Source of the DNA: an uncultured Saprospiraceae bacterium
GTDB taxonomy: Bacteria; Bacteroidota; Bacteroidia; Chitinophagales; Saprospiraceae
NCBI GenBank assembly: GCA_937921555.1
Contig: CAKZUV010000108.1
Span: 1-35,309, forward strand
Reading direction: 5' to 3'
DNA: 35,309 nt
Under the pieces are notes generated by a model. That model worked only from the letters and a program-made list of their open reading frames with translations. It was not told the DNA's origin and did no database searches. A program made the position numbers and the translations under genes. Of the stretch, positions 4,945-20,286 are shown one piece after another; the first letter of the stretch is position 1; each line of letters opens with the position of its first letter.

Positions 4945-5441
4945 CAGCAGATCTTCAAAATCTCCCCGTTCCCGTACAAGAGGCACTACTGGAAATTACC
5001 GATCCGGAAATTCCGGTGTTGTCGATTATGGATATGGGTGTTGTACGGGAGGTGACACTCGATGAAAAACACGTTCACATCAAACTAACGCCCACTTATT
5101 CCGGCTGTCCGGCGATGGACACGATGGCCGTTGATATTAAACGGGCACTAGAAAAAAGAGGATATGACGCTACCGTCAAACTGGTCCTTGCCCCGGCCTG
5201 GACAACCGACTGGATTACGCCTGCCGGTCGTGCCGCACTGGAAGCGTATGGTATCGCAGCGCCCCTCGACGCGCAGTCGGATAAATATGCTTTGATCGAC
5301 GGAGAGCGAATTGTTAAGTGCACCAACTGTGGCTCCGCAAATACAAAAATGGTAAGTCAGTTTGGTTCTACCGCTTGCAAAGCACTTTTTCAATGTGAAG
5401 AATGTCTGGAGCCTTTTGATTATTTTAAGTGTTTGAAATAG
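4938..5441 (+). CDS. paaD: phenylacetate degradation protein PaaD (DUF59 plus Zn/Fe-S type C-terminus)
   Basis: Maturation or repair factor required for active phenylacetyl-CoA epoxidase, probably acting on its metal centres. The N-terminal half (about residues 10-95) is a MIP18/DUF59 domain with DPEIPVLSIMDMGVV and the cysteine of SGCPAMD (Cys57). The C-terminal part is cysteine-rich, with Cys128, 131, 147, 153, 156 and 165, as expected for PaaD. Total length 167 fits the family. The ATG at 4938 lies inside the 3' end of paaC, so translation is likely coupled. No membrane or export signal is present. Confidence 0.93.
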   Translation: MVAADLQNLPVPVQEALLEITDPEIPVLSIMDMGVVREVTLDEKHVHIKLTPTYSGCPAMDTMAVDIKRALEKRGYDATVKLVLAPAWTTDWITPAGRAALEAYGIAAPLDAQSDKYALIDGERIVKCTNCGSANTKMVSQFGSTACKALFQCEECLEPFDYFKCLK

Positions 5442-5446
5442 ATCAG

Positions 5447-5478
5447 CTGGTTGACCTGGTTTCTGGTTAGCTAATTAG
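5447..5478 (+). repeat. octamer array after paaD, different unit
   Basis: CTGGTTGA (5447), CCTGGTTT (5455), CTGGTTAG (5463) and CTAATTAG (5471) are four consecutive 8-bp units. The unit sequence differs from the GATTTGTT type, but the 8-bp spacing is the same and it too begins just after a stop codon (paaD ends at 5441). Confidence 0.6.
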
Positions 5479-5542
5479 ATTATCTTTAACGTTTTTCACG
5501 ATTGAGGAAAGCCAAACAGCCAACTGGCAAAAAATCAAAATC

Positions 5543-5959
5543 ATGTCTCACCCTACCGACCCTGCCTCCGTTTATCAAAAAATGATGGAAAAAGATCATT
5601 GCAGCCAATGGATGGGAATTGAACCCGTTATTCTGGAAGTTGGTCGCTGCATAATCAAGATGACCGTTAAACGCGAGATGCTGAATGGGTTTGGAATTTT
5701 ACACGGGGGAATTGCTTTTGCTTTCGCAGACAGCGCCTTCGCATTTGCCGCCAATGGACTAGGCCGGATGGCGGTTTCTATCAGTGGTCAAATCAATTAT
5801 CACCAACCAGCCAAAGAGGGAGAAGTCCTGATCGCAGAAGCCACTGAAGTGGCTACCTCAAAAAAAATGGTTACGCTAGACGTTGCTATTCGCCGAGAAA
5901 GTGACCAGGTTTTGATTGCTTCGTTTCGGGGAATGGGATACCGGCGCGGCGAAAAATAA
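5543..5959 (+). CDS. paaI: hydroxyphenylacetyl-CoA thioesterase PaaI
   Basis: Hotdog-fold acyl-CoA thioesterase that frees CoA from dead-end aromatic CoA esters produced by the phenylacetate pathway. The 138 residues carry the PaaI motif NGFGILHGGIAFAFADSAFA, with HGG at 54-56 and the catalytic-type aspartate at 63. Length matches the family. It is 101 bp after paaD on the same strand, with an octamer array between. No paaG, paaZ, paaJ, paaH or paaK is present in the window, so the downstream pathway genes must be elsewhere if they exist. Confidence 0.9.
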   Translation: MSHPTDPASVYQKMMEKDHCSQWMGIEPVILEVGRCIIKMTVKREMLNGFGILHGGIAFAFADSAFAFAANGLGRMAVSISGQINYHQPAKEGEVLIAEATEVATSKKMVTLDVAIRRESDQVLIASFRGMGYRRGEK

Positions 5960-5999: not shown

Positions 6000-6007
6000 T
6001 ACCTTTG
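6000..6007 (+). promoter_or_regulatory. -7 box in front of the cobalamin riboswitch
   Basis: TACCTTTG fits TAnnTTTG exactly. Transcription would begin at about 6013, precisely where the riboswitch starts. The -33 region is poor (TTTC at 5972-5975), so the call rests on the -7 box and its position. Confidence 0.5.
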
Positions 6008-6177
6008 CATATTCGTTGGTTCCAGATTCGTTCTGGATTAAAAGGGAATTTCGTGTAACTCGAAAACTGTTCCCGCAGCTGTAAGTTGTCATTCAACCCG
6101 ATTTTATAAATCCACTGTCCTGCCACGGCAAGATGGGAAGGAAAAGTCAGGGGACAATAAGTCAGAAGACCTGCCAG
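6008..6177 (+). promoter_or_regulatory. cobalamin (adenosylcobalamin-class) riboswitch
   Basis: The conserved blocks of the cobalamin riboswitch appear in order. AAAAGGGAATTTCGTG is at about 6040-6055, then CTGTTCCCGCAGCTGTAA (6067-6084), CCACTG (6112-6117), GGGAAGG (6135-6141), and the terminal AGTCAGAAGACCTGCC (6160-6175, the B12 box region). The upstream CCAG...CTGG pair (6022-6035) forms a peripheral stem. It reads on the plus strand into the BtuB-type receptor, so cobalamin should repress B12 uptake. Confidence 0.93.
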
Positions 6178-6436
6178 CAGAATATATTTTCATTTTTCTA
6201 TCGGGATAATAGTAAGAATGGATATCGGAAATGATCGGCTGTTTAATTAAAGTTTGTCATGTCTCAGCGTGTATCGTGTATTCTCAAAAGAAGATATATC
6301 CGCTGATACTATTTACTGAACAGTCCCGAAATCATCGGCCCTAATTGTCGATTAACGGTGGTGTAGTTTTCATCCTGAAACTACCTGCGCTCGCTCCCCT
6401 ATCCGCTCTTTTCTCTTTTCCCACTATTATTTTTTC
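6178..6436 (+). other. leader between riboswitch and btuB (expression platform)
   Basis: A 259-nt untranslated stretch without a supportable gene. One hairpin is visible, GTAGTTTTCA (6363-6372) with TGAAACTAC (6376-6384), one base bulged, followed by a pyrimidine-rich run to the start codon. There is no clear U-tract terminator, so control may be at translation or through another mechanism. The pyrimidine-rich region just before the ATG has no Shine-Dalgarno sequence. Confidence 0.5.
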
Positions 6437-8332
6437 ATGCATCGCGCAATTGTTAAAGCTTGTCTTTTTATCTCTCTGCTTTTCCTTACGGGAGCAGTAA
6501 CCGGGCTGTATGCACAAGAAGATACGCTGGCGTTGCCAACCATTACCATCACTGAAAAACCAGTTTTTAGTGGCGAACAAACGGATCGTCCCGACGAAGC
6601 ATTGCTAGCCCGGCAGCCTGCTATCCACGTCGGAGAACTACTCAGTCAGTCTACCGGCGTTTTCGTTAAATCTTTTGGCGGTGGCAGTTCCGCTACAACT
6701 TCTATCCGGGGGGGCAGCGCGGAACATACCCGGGTGCTCTGGAACGGTTTGCCGATTGAAAACCCCATGTTGGGACAGCTCGATTTTTCGTTGTTGCCTG
6801 CCATTTTCGTGGACGAAGTTGCGGTGCATTATGGTGGAAATACCGCAACGTGGGGCAACGGCGCCATCGGCGGTACGGTCCAGCTGGATAATAAAATCGA
6901 CTGGAAAAAGAAAGGTCTGATTGCCCAATATACGGCAACAAGCGGTGCGTTTGGTTTGGCACAGCAGGGCTTAAAGGTTGGTTTTGGTAACGAGAAATTT
7001 CAGATCATAAACCGAATATTTTATCAGCAAGCGGAAAACGATTTCACCTATTTTATCAGTGAAAATTTGCCACGCAGAAAGCAGACCAACGCGGCTACAA
7101 AACAATGGGGAACGCTACAGGAACTGCATTTTCGAATCACCCCCCGCCAAACCCTTAACGCTTATTTTTGGTATCAAAACGTAGACCGGCAGCTTCCGCC
7201 CCACGCCGCGCAAACCCGCTCCGAAGCCCGGCAATCCGACGAAACCAAAAGACTCACCGTTGACTGGCAGTACGCTGGCAATAGTTGGCTACTGAAAGCG
7301 CAGGCAGCCTGGTACGAAGAAGATTTATGGTACGTTGATCCTTTGAGTGGCATCGATGATTTAAGTGGTTTTAATACTTTACTGGGACAAATAACGGGCA
7401 CTAAAAACATTGGCCGCATACACCGGTTGACGGTTGGAATTCAGGAAGCATTTTATCAGGCAGATACAGATTTATACCAAAACAGTATTACCCAAAACCG
7501 GCTGGCAACCTGGTCGGACTGGAAAACGGAATGGCAGAAATTATCCCTTCAGTTAAGTATTCGACAGGAATGGCAGGACGGAAAAGCACTTCCGGTCGTA
7601 CCAAGTTTTGGAGCGGTTTATCATCCTTTCGACTGGATCAGTTTACGTGGCAGAGTAAGTAGAAATTACCGTTCTCCCAACTTAAATGCCCTTTATTATT
7701 TTCCAACGGGCAATCCGGATTTACTGCCGGAGCGTGGCTGGAGCCGGGAGCTGGGACTGGATATCAATTTTATAAAATTCAATAATTGGACGGGAGGTTA
7801 CGGAATAACCGGATTTCGAAGAGAGATAAAAAACTGGATCCGATGGATTTTGCCGGAAGGCAGCTTTTCGTTCGCACCTACCAACGTAGCCGAGGTCCTG
7901 AGCGAAGGAATAGAACACCGGCTAAACTTGAACGGAAAATACAAACACACTGTTTTTAAATTATCCATTGGCTATAATCAATTGCGTTCTGTTCATAAAA
8001 AAGGGATCGTACGTCCTCAAATCGCAGCGGGCAGTCAGCTGGTTTATACACCGAAACAACAGTTTTTTTCTACCCTAAAATTCAATTACCGGGACGCGCT
8101 CTTTATTTTTCAACACCGGTACACGGGAGAGGTTACGTCGCTTAATAACAATATACTGCCAGGATATCATTTGAGTGATTTAACGCTCGGTTATACTTTA
8201 AAAACAAAGCGCTGGCAACATCGACTCAGTTTGCGGATCAATAATTTATGGGACAAAGATTATCGGGTGCTGGAACGACGCGGGATGCCGGGGAGATATT
8301 TGAGTTTTGGTATTAATACGGGGGTTCGGTGA
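6437..8332 (+). CDS. btuB: TonB-dependent vitamin B12 receptor, BtuB type
   Basis: Outer-membrane gated barrel that imports cobalamin using TonB energy. The 631 residues start with a signal peptide (hydrophobic to about residue 24, cleavage near LYA-Q). A TonB-box-like TITITEKP follows at about 35-42, then a plug domain (SQSTGVFVKSFGGG, TSIRGGSAEHTRVLWNGLPI, GNGAIGGTVQL), and a barrel that ends with aromatic strands. It lacks the CarboxypepD-like N-terminal extension found in SusC-type receptors. Substrate assignment comes from the cobalamin riboswitch immediately upstream and the DUF4465 gene downstream; the protein alone would only say TonB receptor. An octamer array starts inside its stop codon. 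Confidence 0.88.
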   Translation: MHRAIVKACLFISLLFLTGAVTGLYAQEDTLALPTITITEKPVFSGEQTDRPDEALLARQPAIHVGELLSQSTGVFVKSFGGGSSATTSIRGGSAEHTRVLWNGLPIENPMLGQLDFSLLPAIFVDEVAVHYGGNTATWGNGAIGGTVQLDNKIDWKKKGLIAQYTATSGAFGLAQQGLKVGFGNEKFQIINRIFYQQAENDFTYFISENLPRRKQTNAATKQWGTLQELHFRITPRQTLNAYFWYQNVDRQLPPHAAQTRSEARQSDETKRLTVDWQYAGNSWLLKAQAAWYEEDLWYVDPLSGIDDLSGFNTLLGQITGTKNIGRIHRLTVGIQEAFYQADTDLYQNSITQNRLATWSDWKTEWQKLSLQLSIRQEWQDGKALPVVPSFGAVYHPFDWISLRGRVSRNYRSPNLNALYYFPTGNPDLLPERGWSRELGLDINFIKFNNWTGGYGITGFRREIKNWIRWILPEGSFSFAPTNVAEVLSEGIEHRLNLNGKYKHTVFKLSIGYNQLRSVHKKGIVRPQIAAGSQLVYTPKQQFFSTLKFNYRDALFIFQHRYTGEVTSLNNNILPGYHLSDLTLGYTLKTKRWQHRLSLRINNLWDKDYRVLERRGMPGRYLSFGINTGVR

Positions 8333-8370
8333 ATTGTTGATTTGTTGATTTGTTGATTTGTTGATTTGTT
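8331..8370 (+). repeat. octamer array A of composite element, copy 1
   Basis: GAATTGTT followed by four GATTTGTT units at 8331, 8339, 8347, 8355 and 8363, exact 8-bp period. The first base pair of the array is the second base of the btuB stop codon (TGA 8330-8332). It leads directly into the GC-rich hairpin at 8372. Confidence 0.9.
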
Positions 8371-8371
8371 T

Positions 8372-8404
8372 AACCTGCCTTCCTGCGTCGGCAGGCAGGT
8401 CGTT
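8372..8404 (+). repeat. 33-bp GC-rich hairpin, copy 1
   Basis: This 33-bp segment is identical to 12958-12990. It folds as ACCTG, four bulged bases, CCTGC, loop GTCG, GCAGG, CAGGT, a ten-pair stem. In both places it sits between an octamer array and the 58-nt hairpin. Confidence 0.88.
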
Positions 8405-8436
8405 TAAAATTATGATACTTTTAGCGGAAACAGTGA

Positions 8437-8494
8437 GGTAAAAAATCAGGGAATCTCCCTTCAGGGCTGGGGTAAAATTCCATGATTTTTTACC
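8437..8494 (+). repeat. 58-nt covarying hairpin, copy 1
   Basis: Outer stem GGTAAAAAATCA (8437-8448) with TGATTTTTTACC (8483-8494), one mismatch, then GGAAT with ATTCC, then a small hairpin CCCT-TC-AGGG and an unpaired CTGGGGTAAA on the 3' side. Copy 2 at 13002-13059 has the same length and fold with compensatory base changes. A short array of two GAATCGTT units (8507-8522) follows, closing the composite element 38 bp before the next gene. Confidence 0.85.
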
Positions 8495-8559
8495 GACGTT
8501 ACCTGTGAATCGTTGAATCGTTTATTTAAAAAATTTAATTTAAAATTTAAAATAGTAAC

Positions 8560-9513
8560 ATGAAAAGATTATTTACACTTTTATTGCTGACTTTTTGCCT
8601 GGGACTGAATGCACAGGTTTATTTTGAGGATGTTGTTGAGTCGGGAGAATTTATTAATGATAGTTCGCCGGAAGCTGGCTTTACTTTTGATAATTTATTT
8701 TTTCCAAATACGTACGATGCGGATTTTGATTTCTGGACGGGATGGGCAATCTCTGCTACCACGGATGTGACGACACCTGGTTTTATGAATCAGTATAGTG
8801 CCATCGTCGGAGAAGGAGCGGATGGGTCTGGTGCGTACGCAGTCAGCTTTGCGTCGCCCGAATCTTACGTGACACTGGATACCGAGCAGACTACGGGGAT
8901 GCTTACAATTCCTTCCGTGCACGTAACCAACAGTACTTACGCGTTTTTGAGTATGCGTGACGGGGACAGCTTTGCCAAAAAATTTGGTGGGGAAACAGGA
9001 AATGATCCGGATTTTTTCCTGTTGACCATTAAAACCTATTCGGAAAATCAGTTACAGGATTCAATTCTGTTCTATCTGGCAGATTTCCGTTTTGAAGACA
9101 ATAGTCAGGATTATATTCTGAATGAATGGGAAGAAATTACTTTTTCTAACGAAGCAGTTGACAGTATAACATTCGGATTGTCTTCTTCCGACAATGGTAT
9201 GTTTGGAATGAATACGCCGGCTTATTTTTGTGCCGATGTTTTTGGAAATCCACTGGTACTTAGTGTCAAAGAGAATGACCTTACGGGTATTTCACTGCTC
9301 AATACGCTGGCCGCTTCGGAGTTAATTATTAATTCTGAATTAGCTAAAGAAGCGGATTATCAAATTTTTGGATTGAGCGGACAGGTGATTCAGAATGGAA
9401 AAATAACAATCGGTGAGCAATACCTTTCGGTAGATAATCTGACAACGGGTAAGTACTGGATCCGGGTAGAACAGGATGGACAACAGTGGGTTCAGGGATT
9501 TGTGGTGAATTAA
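8560..9513 (+). CDS. DUF4465 secreted protein with T9SS sorting domain
   Basis: A 317-residue exported protein. Residues 1-19 form a signal peptide (cleavage near NAQ-V). The middle matches DUF4465, with FWTGWAISATTDVTTPGF, NQYSAIVGEG and GAYAVSF corresponding to that family's conserved W.G.a.S...d.t.pG..NQYSA pattern. The last 75 residues are a type A T9SS C-terminal domain (ENGKITIGEQ-like strands, TTGKYWIRVEQDGQQWVQGFVVN). It therefore should be moved to the cell surface by the type IX system. It follows btuB under a cobalamin riboswitch. DUF4465-like proteins recur in Bacteroidota cobalamin loci, so a role as a surface B12-binding accessory protein is a reasonable inference. Function is not shown by the sequence alone. 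Confidence 0.8.
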   Translation: MKRLFTLLLLTFCLGLNAQVYFEDVVESGEFINDSSPEAGFTFDNLFFPNTYDADFDFWTGWAISATTDVTTPGFMNQYSAIVGEGADGSGAYAVSFASPESYVTLDTEQTTGMLTIPSVHVTNSTYAFLSMRDGDSFAKKFGGETGNDPDFFLLTIKTYSENQLQDSILFYLADFRFEDNSQDYILNEWEEITFSNEAVDSITFGLSSSDNGMFGMNTPAYFCADVFGNPLVLSVKENDLTGISLLNTLAASELIINSELAKEADYQIFGLSGQVIQNGKITIGEQYLSVDNLTTGKYWIRVEQDGQQWVQGFVVN

Positions 9514-11542: not shown

Positions 11543-12916
11543 ATGGATTTACTGATAGATATTGTCCGCGGACTGATTGGAATCGTTTCCATGCTGGCTA
11601 TTTGTTACGCCCTCAGCGCCAATCGAAAAGCGATTGACTGGAAGCTGGTATTATCCGGGATTGCCCTGCAAATTGTACTGGCACTACTGATTTTAAAGGT
11701 GGATTTCATCTACGAAGGCTTCAGAATCGTATCAGACGGGTTTGTAGCCTTACTTGGTTTCGCCGATGCAGGGGCAGCTTTTTTATTCGGCGCCTGGCCG
11801 GAAACCATGGTTTGGCTTCCGACAAATATTGAGGGGGTGGCTCCTGATGCGACCCAAGTTGCGGTTACTCCCGACACTAAAATGCAGATTTTCAAAATGG
11901 GCTATATGTTCGCATTTAAGGTATTGCCCACCATTGTTTTCTTTGCCGCATTTACCTCTATCCTCTATTATCTCGGTATTCTGCAAAAGATTATTTATGT
12001 TTTCGCCAAGGGAATGAGTAAAGTCATGCGGCTCTCCGGAGCGGAAAGTCTGGCGGCGGCGGCCAACGTTTTTATCGGACAAACCGAAGCGCCACTGGTC
12101 ATCAAACCCTACCTGGACAAGATGACCAAATCTGAAATCATGTGTCTCATGACGGGTGGAATGGCAACGATTGCCGGAGGAATTTTTGCACTCTGTGTCT
12201 CACTGCTCGGTCCCGAATACGCACTGCACTTTCTGACGGCTTCCATCATTTCGGCACCCGCTGCAATTGTGGCCGCTAAAATGCTGTATCCCGAAACGGT
12301 AGAGGTAGATCGCTCGGTCACCGTCCCTAAAGAAAAACTTGGAAATAACTTGCTGGATGCCATCTCCATCGGTACCACCGACGGTGTAAAACTGGCGGTC
12401 AACGTCGGCGCCATGCTGCTCGTTTTTATTTCGCTGGTCGCCCTGGTCAATGCCGTTTTAGGATGGTTCGGAGACCTGACCGGACTGAATGGATTGGTCA
12501 ATAATTTTACCGATGGCCGATTTGCTACTTTTAATCTCGAATCCATCCTGGGACTTATTTTTTCTCCCATTGCCTGGTTATTGGGAACACCTACCGAAGA
12601 TTTAATTTTAGTAGGCTCTTTGTTAGGAAAAAAGACGGCGGTCAACGAAGTGGTTGCCTACGTGGATTTGAGTATTATGGTCGCCGATGCCAAACTACAA
12701 TTATCAGATAAATCTATCGTGATTGCGACGTATGCACTTTGTGGATTTTCCAATTTCAGTTCTATTGGAATTCAAATTGGCGGGATCAGCGCGATCAGCC
12801 CGGATCAGCGGCCTACCCTCACGGAACTTGGTCTGAAGGCACTGATCGGTGGAACTATTGCGTGCTTTCTGACGGCAGCGGTTGCGGGGATGGTACTTGA
12901 TGAGATTATGGTTTGA
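11543..12916 (+). CDS. nupC: concentrative nucleoside transporter (NupC/CNT family)
   Basis: Inner-membrane symporter that takes up nucleosides with H+ or Na+. The 457-residue sequence has many hydrophobic segments and the CNT signature GQTEAPLVIKPYL at about 179-191, followed by CLMTGGMATIAGGIFAL, and a late CGFSNFSSIGIQIGG that matches the family's second substrate/ion site region. An N-terminal helix plus a polar loop (residues 85-115) precede the conserved core. It is divergent from udk; together they would import and phosphorylate nucleosides. The symbol is by family; the exact nucleoside preference cannot be read. A composite repeat follows shortly after its stop. Confidence 0.9.
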   Translation: MDLLIDIVRGLIGIVSMLAICYALSANRKAIDWKLVLSGIALQIVLALLILKVDFIYEGFRIVSDGFVALLGFADAGAAFLFGAWPETMVWLPTNIEGVAPDATQVAVTPDTKMQIFKMGYMFAFKVLPTIVFFAAFTSILYYLGILQKIIYVFAKGMSKVMRLSGAESLAAAANVFIGQTEAPLVIKPYLDKMTKSEIMCLMTGGMATIAGGIFALCVSLLGPEYALHFLTASIISAPAAIVAAKMLYPETVEVDRSVTVPKEKLGNNLLDAISIGTTDGVKLAVNVGAMLLVFISLVALVNAVLGWFGDLTGLNGLVNNFTDGRFATFNLESILGLIFSPIAWLLGTPTEDLILVGSLLGKKTAVNEVVAYVDLSIMVADAKLQLSDKSIVIATYALCGFSNFSSIGIQIGGISAISPDQRPTLTELGLKALIGGTIACFLTAAVAGMVLDEIMV

Positions 12917-12932
12917 GTGCGCTGCGCGCGTT

Positions 12933-12957
12933 GAATTGTTGAATTGTTGAATTGTTG
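12933..12957 (+). repeat. octamer array A of composite element, copy 2
   Basis: GAATTGTT at 12933, 12941 and 12949, then GAACCTGC at 12957, keeps the 8-bp phase into the GC-rich hairpin. The array starts 16 bp after the transporter stop codon; a small GC palindrome (GCGCTGCGCGCG, about 12919-12930) lies between. Confidence 0.88.
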
Positions 12958-12990
12958 AACCTGCCTTCCTGCGTCGGCAGGCAGGTCGTT
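12958..12990 (+). repeat. 33-bp GC-rich hairpin, copy 2
   Basis: Identical over 33 bp to 8372-8404, with the same ten-pair stem around a GTCG loop. Identity is complete here, while the neighbouring 58-nt hairpin has diverged. Confidence 0.88.
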
Positions 12991-13001
12991 GATATTCATA
13001 A

Positions 13002-13059
13002 AGTAAAAAGTCTTAAAATCTCCCCTCGGGGTTGGGGTAAAATTTTCAGATTTTTTACT
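13002..13059 (+). repeat. 58-nt covarying hairpin, copy 2
   Basis: AGTAAAAAGTCT (13002-13013) pairs with AGATTTTTTACT (13048-13059) with one G-T wobble, then AAAAT with ATTTT, then CCCC-TC-GGGG, with TTGGGGTAAA unpaired. Compared with copy 1 every base change in the stem is compensated or becomes G-U on the plus strand, and the mismatch at the same internal position is kept. Confidence 0.85.
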
Positions 13060-17084: not shown

Positions 17085-18890
17085 CTAAAATCTAACCATC
17101 TTTTCTACTCTTCGGTCGGTCGCCGTTGTCATTTCTATTAAATAAACACCACTTTGCCAGTCTCCAGTAGTCAAATTTATTTGAGGATTACCGGGCAGCC
17201 ACTCTTTTTCCAATACATTTTGTCCTATTCCGTTATAAATCCGAATGGTCATCTTTTTTGATAAATCCGGATAGCGAATGATCAGATTATTTTTAAAAGG
17301 ATTGGGATATATCGTCAATTCGGCGAAAGCCAATGCTGAAATATCCGTCGTTAAACAGGGCACCGCCGGATCGTAAGGCACATTCAACGTAAAACTATTG
17401 GTACATCCCGTCGCTTCATCCACCAGTGACAAGGTGTAATTTCCGGATTCAAAAATACAAAGCGACGTTCCAAATTCGCCCGGCAGAATCTCCCCGTTGA
17501 GCAACCAGGCAATCGTGTAATCTTCCGGTAAATTATTTTGATTAAAAAGCGTCAGCAGGTTTTCTTCGTTAACGTAGGCGGGCGTAGCAGGAGGAGTTAA
17601 AAGCGTGACGGTCAGGATTTCGGAACTGGCCGGGCAACCTACCTCGCTCTCATACTGCACGTAATATTCACCCGCCTCACGCACTTCCAGTTGTGATTCC
17701 GTAGCATCCGGAATCAATACACCATCCTGAAACCACTGTATACGCTCGACGTAATTCGTTTCTAAAATAACCGACTGGCCACTGCACACTTCCGTGCTCG
17801 CCAGGGCTATAATTTCTGGATCGGCGGGAACCGCATAAACCACCACAGAATCCAAAGCAGTGACCGTGTCCACCGGATGAATAATGGTCAACCGGACCGT
17901 CAAATCGTCAATCACCAAATCACCGGTAGTAAAGCGATTAAAAGAAACCACTCCGCATTCGTCGTCTCCCAGATTTAGTCCACCGTCATCATCAATCACT
18001 TCTACCCGGTAGGTTTGCGTTCCCAGATCAAGATTGGTGCTGGCTTCGATCGGTGCAAAAGTATTGTCATAATTTGGCGTTAAAAACAAGATACTATCAT
18101 TGGCATCCAACACTTTGATGTTCATATCTGGTGCCGTACTGAAATTGGGAAAACTGGGCAGATCGCGACAACCGGATTCCAGCACTTCGATACTGGTCAG
18201 CAGATAACCTACCGTATCAATGATCGCCTGGTACTGAATTGGATAGACACCCGGTTCGGTATAGGTTTGCGGATTGGGTTGTTCGTTGATGGTAGAATTT
18301 CCATTACCAAAATCCCAGAAATAACTGATTCCATCCTGACCACCGGAAGGAATGTTATTAACAATGCTCACTTCTGTTGGTCCGCAACTAATGTTATTCG
18401 TCAAACTAAACCCCGCCGTATTGCTGGACGCCGGGTTGATGACCATTCTGAACCGGAAAGAAGCCGTCTGGGTAATCACAGATACCTGCGCTGCGATGGT
18501 TATCTCTACTACGAAGGTATCTGCCAGCAGCGGCGTTCCGCAAAACTGGATACAACCATCCGTTTCTTCGTCTGGATTATATTCGGTTTGAGCAGTTTCC
18601 CAGGTCATTCCCGGAGGTAAATTATTGATGGAAATAAGGGTGATATTCTGAATATCCAATCCTGCCGGAGTCCCCGGATCAATCGCGTTGACGGGCGTCG
18701 TCGTTTTGGGCATTCTGAAATTCAGGGCCTCCGAATAACTGGCACCTACCGTTCCGTCGGGCATGGTGCTGAGGAAAAGCGTGTCTTCCGGCAGCGTAGG
18801 TAAATCAACGATACATTCACCGCAATTTTGTGCACTGATATTTCCAAAAAAAGCGGAAAAAATAAAAAGTACGAGTCCAATTTTTTTCAT
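17085..18890 (-). CDS. secreted PKD-domain protein with T9SS sorting domain
   Basis: A 601-residue surface or secreted protein. A signal peptide covers residues 1-20 (cleavage at NISA-Q). A Cys-containing module follows (about 85-130: NLPPGMTWE, then GCIQFCGTPLLADTF). A PKD-like domain comes next (about 180-225: FWDFGNGNST and TYTEPGVYPIQYQA), then Ig-like segments with repeated Gly/Val patterns. A type A T9SS C-terminal domain ends the protein (YPNPFKNNLIIRY ... SGVYLIEMTTATDRR, about the last 80 residues). No enzyme motif was seen; adhesin or structural roles are possible. It ends next to the inverted-repeat element and lies downstream of a similar but shorter cargo gene. Confidence 0.8.
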   Translation of the reverse strand: MKKIGLVLFIFSAFFGNISAQNCGECIVDLPTLPEDTLFLSTMPDGTVGASYSEALNFRMPKTTTPVNAIDPGTPAGLDIQNITLISINNLPPGMTWETAQTEYNPDEETDGCIQFCGTPLLADTFVVEITIAAQVSVITQTASFRFRMVINPASSNTAGFSLTNNISCGPTEVSIVNNIPSGGQDGISYFWDFGNGNSTINEQPNPQTYTEPGVYPIQYQAIIDTVGYLLTSIEVLESGCRDLPSFPNFSTAPDMNIKVLDANDSILFLTPNYDNTFAPIEASTNLDLGTQTYRVEVIDDDGGLNLGDDECGVVSFNRFTTGDLVIDDLTVRLTIIHPVDTVTALDSVVVYAVPADPEIIALASTEVCSGQSVILETNYVERIQWFQDGVLIPDATESQLEVREAGEYYVQYESEVGCPASSEILTVTLLTPPATPAYVNEENLLTLFNQNNLPEDYTIAWLLNGEILPGEFGTSLCIFESGNYTLSLVDEATGCTNSFTLNVPYDPAVPCLTTDISALAFAELTIYPNPFKNNLIIRYPDLSKKMTIRIYNGIGQNVLEKEWLPGNPQINLTTGDWQSGVYLIEMTTATDRRVEKMVRF

Positions 18891-19154: not shown

Positions 19155-19973
19155 TTATTTTAAAATGACCATTTTACTGGAAACTCTGGATTGACCGTTG
19201 GAGAAACTATAATTGTAAATACCATTTTGAAGTTGACTTCCGTCGAATGGAATACGGTTGGTACCTGCCAGAATATTTACTTTTTCTGTGTGGACCCGTT
19301 TTCCAACCAGATCAAAAACTTCAAAGGTTAATACTTCCTGTGAAAGAGAAGTCACTTCAATCGTCGTCTCATAACCAAACGGATTCGGTGTATTGACCAG
19401 CGAAAGCTGCTCTTTTAAATAGTCGCGGGTGCTGGTCGTCATACAGGCACCTTCTTCGCGGACTTCCAGAAAATAATTTCCGTCGGCGCCGGGAATCGCT
19501 CCGGAATTATCTGGTAACGTGACGGGTTGAGAAATAATATTGGTATGCACCACCGCATTCACCATTATATCCTTTATACCTACATCATTAGGATTAGTGG
19601 GCGTTCCAAAAAGAACAATACAAGAAAGTGTATCTTGCGGGACCAGGACACAGGTAGGCGGATTACACGCATAGCTCATACCATCCGGCAGATTATTAAC
19701 GGCTCCGGTGGTAGCTACCGTTACAGAGTCAATCTCCAACTGAATACCGGAAAAATTCAAATTAGGCGGTACCTTTACGGTAATCACAAATTCGTAAGAT
19801 TCGTTGATACACGCTGGCACGTCAATTCCACCGTCGGGACGATCCTCTCTGAAAGGCGAAGGATAAACACCAATAGCAGAATCCCGAAATAATTCATCCG
19901 GCACACAGGATTGTGCGCTGATCAGCGTTACAAAAAAGGAGGCAAATAAGAAAAGTACAATTTTTTTCATCAT
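19155..19973 (-). CDS. secreted protein with T9SS sorting domain, paralogous module
   Basis: A 272-residue exported protein. The frame is open back to a TTG at 20009, but the ATG at 19973 (or the next one at 19970) puts the signal peptide MKKIVLFLFASFFVTLISA at the N-terminus and is preferred. After cleavage near SAQ-S comes a domain with NLPDGMSYACNPPTCV and LFGTPTNPNDVG. This is the same arrangement as NLPPGMTW...GTPLLAD in the neighbouring 601-residue protein. The C-terminus is a type A T9SS domain (NPFGYETTIEV, FEVFDLVGKRVHTE, NGIYNYSFSNGQSR). It is probably co-regulated with the next gene; the hairpin between them suggests separate or attenuated transcription. Confidence 0.75.
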   Translation of the reverse strand: MMKKIVLFLFASFFVTLISAQSCVPDELFRDSAIGVYPSPFREDRPDGGIDVPACINESYEFVITVKVPPNLNFSGIQLEIDSVTVATTGAVNNLPDGMSYACNPPTCVLVPQDTLSCIVLFGTPTNPNDVGIKDIMVNAVVHTNIISQPVTLPDNSGAIPGADGNYFLEVREEGACMTTSTRDYLKEQLSLVNTPNPFGYETTIEVTSLSQEVLTFEVFDLVGKRVHTEKVNILAGTNRIPFDGSQLQNGIYNYSFSNGQSRVSSKMVILK

Positions 19974-20286
19974 ATTATTTTTAAGTAAAAAGGCAGATTT
20001 ATATTGCAAGTTATCTCTTTTTCGACGGTAAAAATGACGGCAAACGCTAATTTAAGATTTTTTTAATACCCTTTACCTGATATTTATCCCTTTGATTTTA
20101 CTAATTTTGCCCTTACTGTTTCTCCACACTACGTTGAATTTTACCTGATTTATTAATTCGATTCCATTCCTTATCAATTGCTGCGATAAGAGAACTTACG
20201 TGTTTATTATAAATACACCTGGTTATTTCTTATCTTTTGGCAGTCTTACGGAAGTTAGTAATGGTTAAACCGAACAATTGAGTATT
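19974..20286. other. divergent regulatory region, no gene
   Basis: This 313-bp spacer separates two divergent genes and must contain both promoters. On the plus strand TAATTTTG (20102-20109) fits the -7 consensus, giving a start near 20115 and a leader of about 170 nt before the TonB receptor; its -33 region is poor. On the minus strand TTAGCGTTTG (20050-20041) is one base too long between TA and TTTG. No riboswitch motif was recognised in the leader. Confidence 0.35.

Follow-up and report, generated by a model that had tools for sequence, protein, structure and literature searches.

In the papers considered here, the vitamin B12-capture proteins that have been worked out are lipid-anchored and come from gut Bacteroides. 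In Bacteroides thetaiotaomicron, the surface B12 binder BtuG is encoded beside the receptor BtuB (PMC10404256), and the lipoproteins BtuJ1 and BtuJ2, which carry the DUF4465 domain (IPR027828), belong to riboswitch-controlled B12 loci with btuB (PMC13398666, PMC12751083). Eight DUF4465 proteins with sequence identity down to 16% are reported to bind B12, and binding by F2I9N3 of Fluviicola taffensis is reported in the same paper (PMC13398666). Here, a stretch of DNA of 35,309 nt (referred to as the window) from an uncultured Saprospiraceae bacterium was analyzed (GCA_937921555.1, contig CAKZUV010000108.1, positions 1-35,309, forward strand; the host genome is a 5.44-Mb assembly of 403 contigs). 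Positions 6000-9513 of its + strand hold, in this order, a promoter box, a cobalamin riboswitch, the gene for a BtuB-type receptor and the gene for a DUF4465 protein ending in the C-terminal sorting domain (CTD) of the type IX secretion system (T9SS). It is probable, in our judgment, that these elements form an uptake unit under riboswitch control in a Saprospiria bacterium that scavenges B12, in which the T9SS-tagged DUF4465 protein supplies B12 to BtuB.

The window protein shares its domain, its fold and its cobalamin-bonding residues with BtuJ1 and BtuJ2. In contrast to these lipoproteins, it combines an ordinary signal peptide with a T9SS CTD and has no lipobox. Like BtuG, the putative binder is encoded beside a BtuB-type receptor (PMC10404256), but BtuG is a propeller with a lipid anchor, whereas the clade of the window protein has a jelly roll and a different export tag. 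Porphyromonas HmuY and HusA are hemophore-like proteins with heme as ligand and with neither DUF4465 nor a cobalamin riboswitch, and the resemblance to them is one of function and not of membership. Hemophore-like proteins are surface or secreted binders that feed a TonB receptor. We take IPR026444 to be the T9SS sorting domain. This entry, a C-terminal extracellular targeting motif, is carried by 229 of 824 DUF4465 members (Juodeikis et al. 2025, PMC12751083), and the window protein is of the same kind as these. The terms "T9SS" and "type IX" are absent from the main text of that paper, and the later PMC13398666 makes no mention of T9SS. The titles and abstract openings searched revealed no T9SS-exported B12 binder, and likewise no riboswitch-btuB-DUF4465-CTD operon, no exchange of such a protein with BtuG and no CTD-bearing BtuG. 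B12 binding by DUF4465 and the IPR026444 count are already published; the operon, the lineage and the BtuG exchange are added here. The novelty of the T9SS-tagged DUF4465 protein is accordingly limited and lies in a clade-wide occurrence with strong operon context.

Composition of the riboswitch-headed unit

A reading of the window made from the sequence only had placed promoter box, riboswitch, BtuB-type receptor and DUF4465 protein one after the other, and each of them was recovered here by motif, by RF00174 or by Pfam and NCBIfam matches. The promoter box TACCTTTG (6000-6007, +) is of the Bacteroidota sigma-A type, for which the consensus is TAnnTTTG (PMC9723704), and an alignment of 27 riboswitches that includes the one of the window has TACCTTTGCA as the majority consensus of its 5' end. 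The motif TAnnTTTGC occurred 13 times in the window against 6.9 expected occurrences, and 4 of 100 shuffled sequences also reached 13. By itself, the box is within chance; its weight rests on position and conservation. The cobalamin riboswitch aptamer (6001-6192, +) matched the covariance model RF00174 over its full length (1-189); its score was 106.3 bits (E 7.4e-26), and the gathering score is 31.5. No second RF00174 match was found in the 5.44 Mb of the host genome. Folding of the 428-nt leader gave a z value of -1.67 relative to shuffled sequences, 5 of 100 of which folded as well or better. This is no clear excess over chance, and the expression platform may work through a terminator or through sequestration of the ribosome-binding site.

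The receptor frame (6437-8332, +, 631 aa) comprises Plug and TonB barrel domains according to Pfam. Its best NCBIfam match was TIGR01779, the vitamin B12 receptor, with 83.9 bits against an equivalog cut-off of 599.7. Because this cut-off was missed, the protein is termed BtuB-type and not BtuB. Four relatives of known structure were found in the PDB at E ≤0.001, namely 8p97 (3.4e-54), 8p98 (4.1e-54, with the entry name Vitamin B12 transporter BtuB), 8bmx_C (7.4e-53) and 8blw_A (1.3e-8), all of which are TonB receptors of B12-uptake structures (PMC10404256). The nearest solved relatives of the protein are thus B12 receptors, and a riboswitch lies upstream of its gene.

The second gene (8560-9513, +) encodes a protein of 317 aa. 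PF14717 matched its residues 55-226 with 164.5 bits against a gathering score of 25, and the jelly roll as a whole spans residues 30-226 (8647-9237). An AlphaFold model based on 120 aligned family proteins was confident, with a mean predicted local distance difference test score (pLDDT) of 93.6, and contained a helix at residues 2-14 in the signal peptide region. Residues 19-233 of the model matched the B12-bound DUF4465 structures 9hmu (Z 25.1; root mean square deviation (rmsd) 2.2 over 199 residues for 9hmu_B) and BtuJ1 9qpm (Z 24.2), identifying an augmented jelly-roll fold; BtuJ2 9i2l_B was matched with Z 19.5. Four conserved residues are common to BtuJ1 and BtuJ2 as hydrogen-bonders of B12 (PMC12751083), and all four were found in the window protein, where Y127, N218, T219 and Y222 correspond to BtuJ1 Y146, N241, T242 and Y245. 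Thus, both the DE-loop Tyr and the HI-loop NTPxY that bond B12 are present. Among the 120 family proteins, window included, the four positions were occupied by Y in 109, N in 119, T in 120 and Y in 95 proteins, respectively.

The signal peptide (residues 1-19, 8560-8616, boundary set by eye) ends in NAQ, and a regular expression detected no lipobox, which separates the protein from lipoproteins of the BtuJ type. At the opposite end, a T9SS type A CTD occupies residues 244-317 (9289-9510). TIGR04183 matched residues 254-316 with 25.4 bits against a cut-off of 23, and residues 243-317 of the model matched the CTDs of the T9SS substrates NucA (8glk_D, Z 11.4, rmsd 1.9 over 74 residues) and mirolase (8qb1_A, Z 11.3, rmsd 1.6 over 75 residues). 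DUF3244 domains came next after the T9SS CTDs with Z about 10, so the fold of the CTD is not unique to T9SS. The earlier description of a DUF4465 protein with a T9SS CTD and without a lipobox was borne out by the family match, the negative regular expression and the fold. PorU (1239.6 bits) and the translocon SprA (2318.2 bits), both expected in a host of T9SS type A cargo, were found in the host genome. A search of the same genome for the CTD family gave at least 150 matches, all above cut-off, with 150 of 338 candidates scored. A tree was built from 38 DUF4465 domains chosen by hand (31 from CTD proteins, 5 from lipoproteins and 2 others). These labels clustered in it, one CTD protein, L169, was placed among long-branched lipoproteins, and the topology is compatible with one or with several origins of the CTD class.

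B12-binding domains occurred in three proteins of the host genome: methionine synthase, methylmalonyl-CoA mutase and a piece that also has a MeaB-type GTPase domain. The corrin-ring families CbiC and CbiG_C were not found in the assembly. On the simplest reading, the host would be a B12 user without corrin-ring synthesis of its own.

Conservation of the arrangement and exchange with BtuG

Within the window's family, 125 of 298 genomes contained DUF4465; in a sample of the phylum, 9 of 395 genomes had it above cut-off, 3 of these 9 belonging to the same family. One locus each was taken from 124 of the 125 genomes, the window included, leaving out a fragment (G446) and, in G407 and G430, a short additional match each. 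The proteins of 120 loci were aligned and scanned after removal of L046, which is truncated within the CTD, and of L099, L164 and L165, which run off their contigs. At E ≤0.01, the CTD was recognized by TIGR04183 in 119 and by PF18962 in 117 of these 120 proteins. Of the 124 proteins, L161 alone showed the lipobox pattern, the remaining 123 being negative (L139 lacks its N terminus); among 6 DUF4465 loci fetched from outside the family, 5 showed it.

Riboswitch, receptor gene and DUF4465 gene formed one series at 94 of the 124 loci. Another 18 had receptor and DUF4465 without a visible riboswitch, 9 had a riboswitch directly before DUF4465, and 3 had neither; overall, a riboswitch lay upstream at 103 and a receptor gene just upstream at 112 loci. 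Twenty-seven sequences from these loci, window included, served to build the riboswitch model R1, which they match by construction, and Rfam RF00174 was above cut-off in 221 of the 298 family genomes. Where at least 3.3 kb of upstream DNA was available (104 loci), 95 loci had a riboswitch. The nine loci with a direct riboswitch-DUF4465 succession are the cleanest sign that the DUF4465 gene itself may be controlled by B12. The sequence-only reading had pointed to relatives as a place to look for DUF4465-CTD proteins next to btuB, and with the receptor just upstream in 112 of 124 loci and the CTD in 119 of 120 proteins these were indeed found.

A wider scan of genome contigs yielded 567 confirmed relatives, the best 80 of which were inspected and overlap in part with the family loci. 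A CTD profile built from the family C termini matched 77 of these 80 and missed L202, which is truncated, L238 from a planctomycete and L240 from a cyanobacterium. The riboswitch was present at 68 of the 80 loci, L256 being weak. Beyond Saprospiraceae, the 80 loci came from Prolixibacteraceae, Salinivirgaceae, other Bacteroidales, Flavobacteriales, Schleiferiaceae and Chitinophagaceae, and the whole layout was also seen in a named strain, Lewinella cohaerens DSM 23179 (L200), with the riboswitch at 2777-2971, the DUF4465-CTD gene at 4986-5954 and the receptor gene at a distance of 16 upstream of the latter. The riboswitch-receptor-DUF4465-CTD arrangement is common among relatives of the host bacterium. 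Ten of the 124 family loci (L078, L109, L138, L141, L145, L146, L148, L153, L159 and L160) encode tandem DUF4465 pairs in one protein, which would offer two potential B12 sites.

Family genomes lacking DUF4465 were represented by 40 riboswitch loci from the upper part of the Rfam list; the choice was not random, and several contigs with short downstream sequence were passed over. The riboswitch unit contained a BtuG-type protein at 19 of these 40 loci, and a laxer pattern detected a lipobox in 18 of the 19. At 3 of the 40, the gene directly behind the riboswitch encodes a propeller-like protein that carries a T9SS CTD. Neither kind of protein was seen at the remaining 18, among them L265, whose sequence breaks off within the receptor gene. 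Across the family, PF16819 (BtuG-type) was above cut-off in 139 of 298 genomes. The host genome barely belongs to these: its matches are weak, and the best (G000:C296:525-1103), which lies on another contig in a frame of 367 aa, has 28.4 bits against 27.2. Because 13 of the 124 DUF4465 loci have a BtuG-type gene nearby, the exchange of DUF4465 for BtuG is a tendency and not a rule. Related genomes that fill one operon slot with either a BtuG lipoprotein or a DUF4465-CTD protein nevertheless make a natural comparison of anchoring modes.

Fourteen riboswitch-controlled receptors were less similar to the BtuB-type receptor of the window (L263, L264, L266, L270, L273, L276, L278, L282, L284, L285, L289, L290, L292 and L297), and neither DUF4465 nor BtuG was seen in their units. 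They possibly represent another receptor subfamily that works without a surface partner.

Proposed mechanism and alternative explanations

The proposed uptake unit builds on the riboswitch, the conserved gene order, the domain architecture, the B12-pocket residues, the T9SS genes and the B12-using enzymes computed here. B12 would repress the unit; when cobalamin is scarce, the riboswitch would be permissive, and btuB and the DUF4465 gene would be expressed together. The CTD of a T9SS cargo guides it through the outer-membrane pore and is then cleaved off by PorU. The DUF4465 protein would accordingly pass the inner membrane with the help of its ordinary signal peptide. Its CTD would then direct it into the T9SS pore for export across the outer membrane and would be clipped off by PorU afterwards. 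The mature jelly roll, at the surface or released, would bind B12, raise the local supply and hand the vitamin over to BtuB, filling the role that lipid-anchored BtuG and BtuJ have in gut Bacteroides. If this is true, B12 capture in a large group of environmental Bacteroidota relies on a processed protein at the surface or on a released one, and the set of cells that profit from the captured vitamin would change. A clean test is possible, since receptor and partner share a single riboswitch in front of them.

Several observations, however, weigh against this interpretation. The receptor falls far short of the BtuB equivalog cut-off, and the B12 auxotrophy is based on two absent families in an assembly of 403 contigs. 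Y222 is replaced by F in 22 of the 120 family proteins. PF18962, which represents the sorting domain in a second library, scored the window CTD with 24.4 bits, below its gathering score of 27, and the window's own CTD was not among the at least 150 matches listed for the host genome. At 9 of the 104 loci with sufficient upstream DNA, no riboswitch was detected by R1 or at the Rfam gathering score. DUF4465 need not be the sole partner, since BtuG-type genes lie near 13 of the 124 loci and the host genome has weak PF16819 matches. Finally, the unusually long spacer in the window may lower expression of the second gene below the level reached in relatives.

Alternative fates and ligands of the DUF4465 protein were also considered. 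Full release of the protein as a diffusible, hemophore-like B12-binding "cobalophore" or as vesicle cargo, not fixed beside BtuB, is a less probable alternative. In its favor are the type A CTD without a lipobox, the 10 of 124 family loci at which a single CTD follows two DUF4465 domains, and the action of B. thetaiotaomicron BtuJ proteins on extracellular vesicles (PMC12751083). On the other side, many cargos of type A regain an anchor in the form of anionic lipopolysaccharide (A-LPS) once PorU has cut them, which may also apply in Saprospiria, and the tight coupling to btuB suits a local partner too. A vestigial CTD on a periplasmic B12 binder would agree with the weak Pfam score and with the periplasmic targeting signals that non-lipoprotein DUF4465 proteins are said to bear (PMC13398666). 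It is unlikely in view of the CTD in 119 of 120 family proteins, the match to the T9SS-CTD fold and the T9SS genes of the host. The ratio of nonsynonymous to synonymous substitution (dN/dS) in the CTD also points against it, with values of 0.04 and 0.09 in two of six genus pairs (one with a saturated dS of 4.5; the other four gave no value). Binding of B12 by the DUF4465 proteins of this clade is a prediction, and together with the change of Y222 to F in 22 of 120 family proteins this might suggest a different ligand. The riboswitch control, which includes the 9 of 124 loci with the riboswitch directly before DUF4465, the conserved pocket residues and the eight DUF4465 proteins reported to bind B12 (PMC13398666) make such a ligand highly improbable.

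The spacer between the two genes (8333-8559, +) had been described from the sequence as a composite repeat with two hairpins that could set the ratio of btuB to DUF4465. The repeat is real: it consists of an octamer tandem TTGTTGAT, hairpin 1 (8374-8399) and hairpin 2 (8437-8494), and its fold was better than those of all 200 shuffled sequences (z -2.97), which is the evidence in favor of a regulatory role. It proved to be dispersed, however, with 56 matches in the host genome at E ≤10 (itself included; many partial), 40 of them at E ≤1.2e-12, and it recurs within the window at 12930-13058, after another open reading frame (ORF; 11543-12916). In three fetched relatives from the genus, inspected by eye, both hairpins were missing from L128 and L126, and L133 had hairpin 2 alone. 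The distance between receptor and DUF4465 had a median of 9 at 94 loci (starts were approximated where the ORF was over-long), and the 228 of the window was an outlier by the same measure; of 112 family gaps, 102 were ≤100 and 6 exceeded 200. A ratio-setting function of the repeat was thus rejected and is quite unlikely. A separate promoter for the DUF4465 gene within the spacer, which the sequence-only reading had named as an argument against joint control, was rejected as well, the search of 8333-8559 having yielded no TAnnTTTG box, the one promoter type it covered. We read the spacer as an inserted dispersed repeat that still permits co-transcription and is not a conserved regulator. From the earlier interpretation, one riboswitch-headed unit with a T9SS-tagged putative B12 binder was retained, and the repeat as ratio-setter was given up.

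Other T9SS-tagged proteins

The propeller-like CTD proteins came from three genomes of one related genus (L274:511-1824, L275:521-1834 and L287:535-1836). Pfam and a direct sequence search of the PDB did not recognize their propeller as BtuG. Comparison of their profile with that of BtuG-type proteins gave a probability of 98.3 over 311 columns, as opposed to 1.0 for DUF4465 and 3.8 for receptors as controls. In a low-confidence model of one of them (mean pLDDT 62.3), BtuG-type structures, most of them cobalamin-bound, took ranks 2-11 after a designed propeller. The fold match is no more than suggestive, and these proteins possibly represent a T9SS-exported BtuG. A further combination was seen in Bacteroidales, where a single protein (L248:4437-7268) joins DUF4465 (213-385), a BtuH-like domain (492-759; 7biz, E 9.1e-39) and a T9SS CTD, and its gene has a cobalamin riboswitch directly upstream. 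7BIZ is the structure of B12-bound BtuH2 (PMC8941943). It is conceivable, though doubtful, that T9SS is a general route of B12 capture in Saprospiria and neighboring Bacteroidota, in which at least three unrelated folds, the DUF4465 jelly roll, the BtuG-type propeller and the BtuH domain, would have been joined to CTDs behind riboswitches, often replacing lipid-anchored BtuG, with some of the products released for distant harvest.

Two ORFs on the minus strand of the window (17085-18890 and 19155-20009) likewise carry a T9SS CTD at the C terminus, with the CTD matches located at C108:17094-17312 and C108:19164-19391, respectively.

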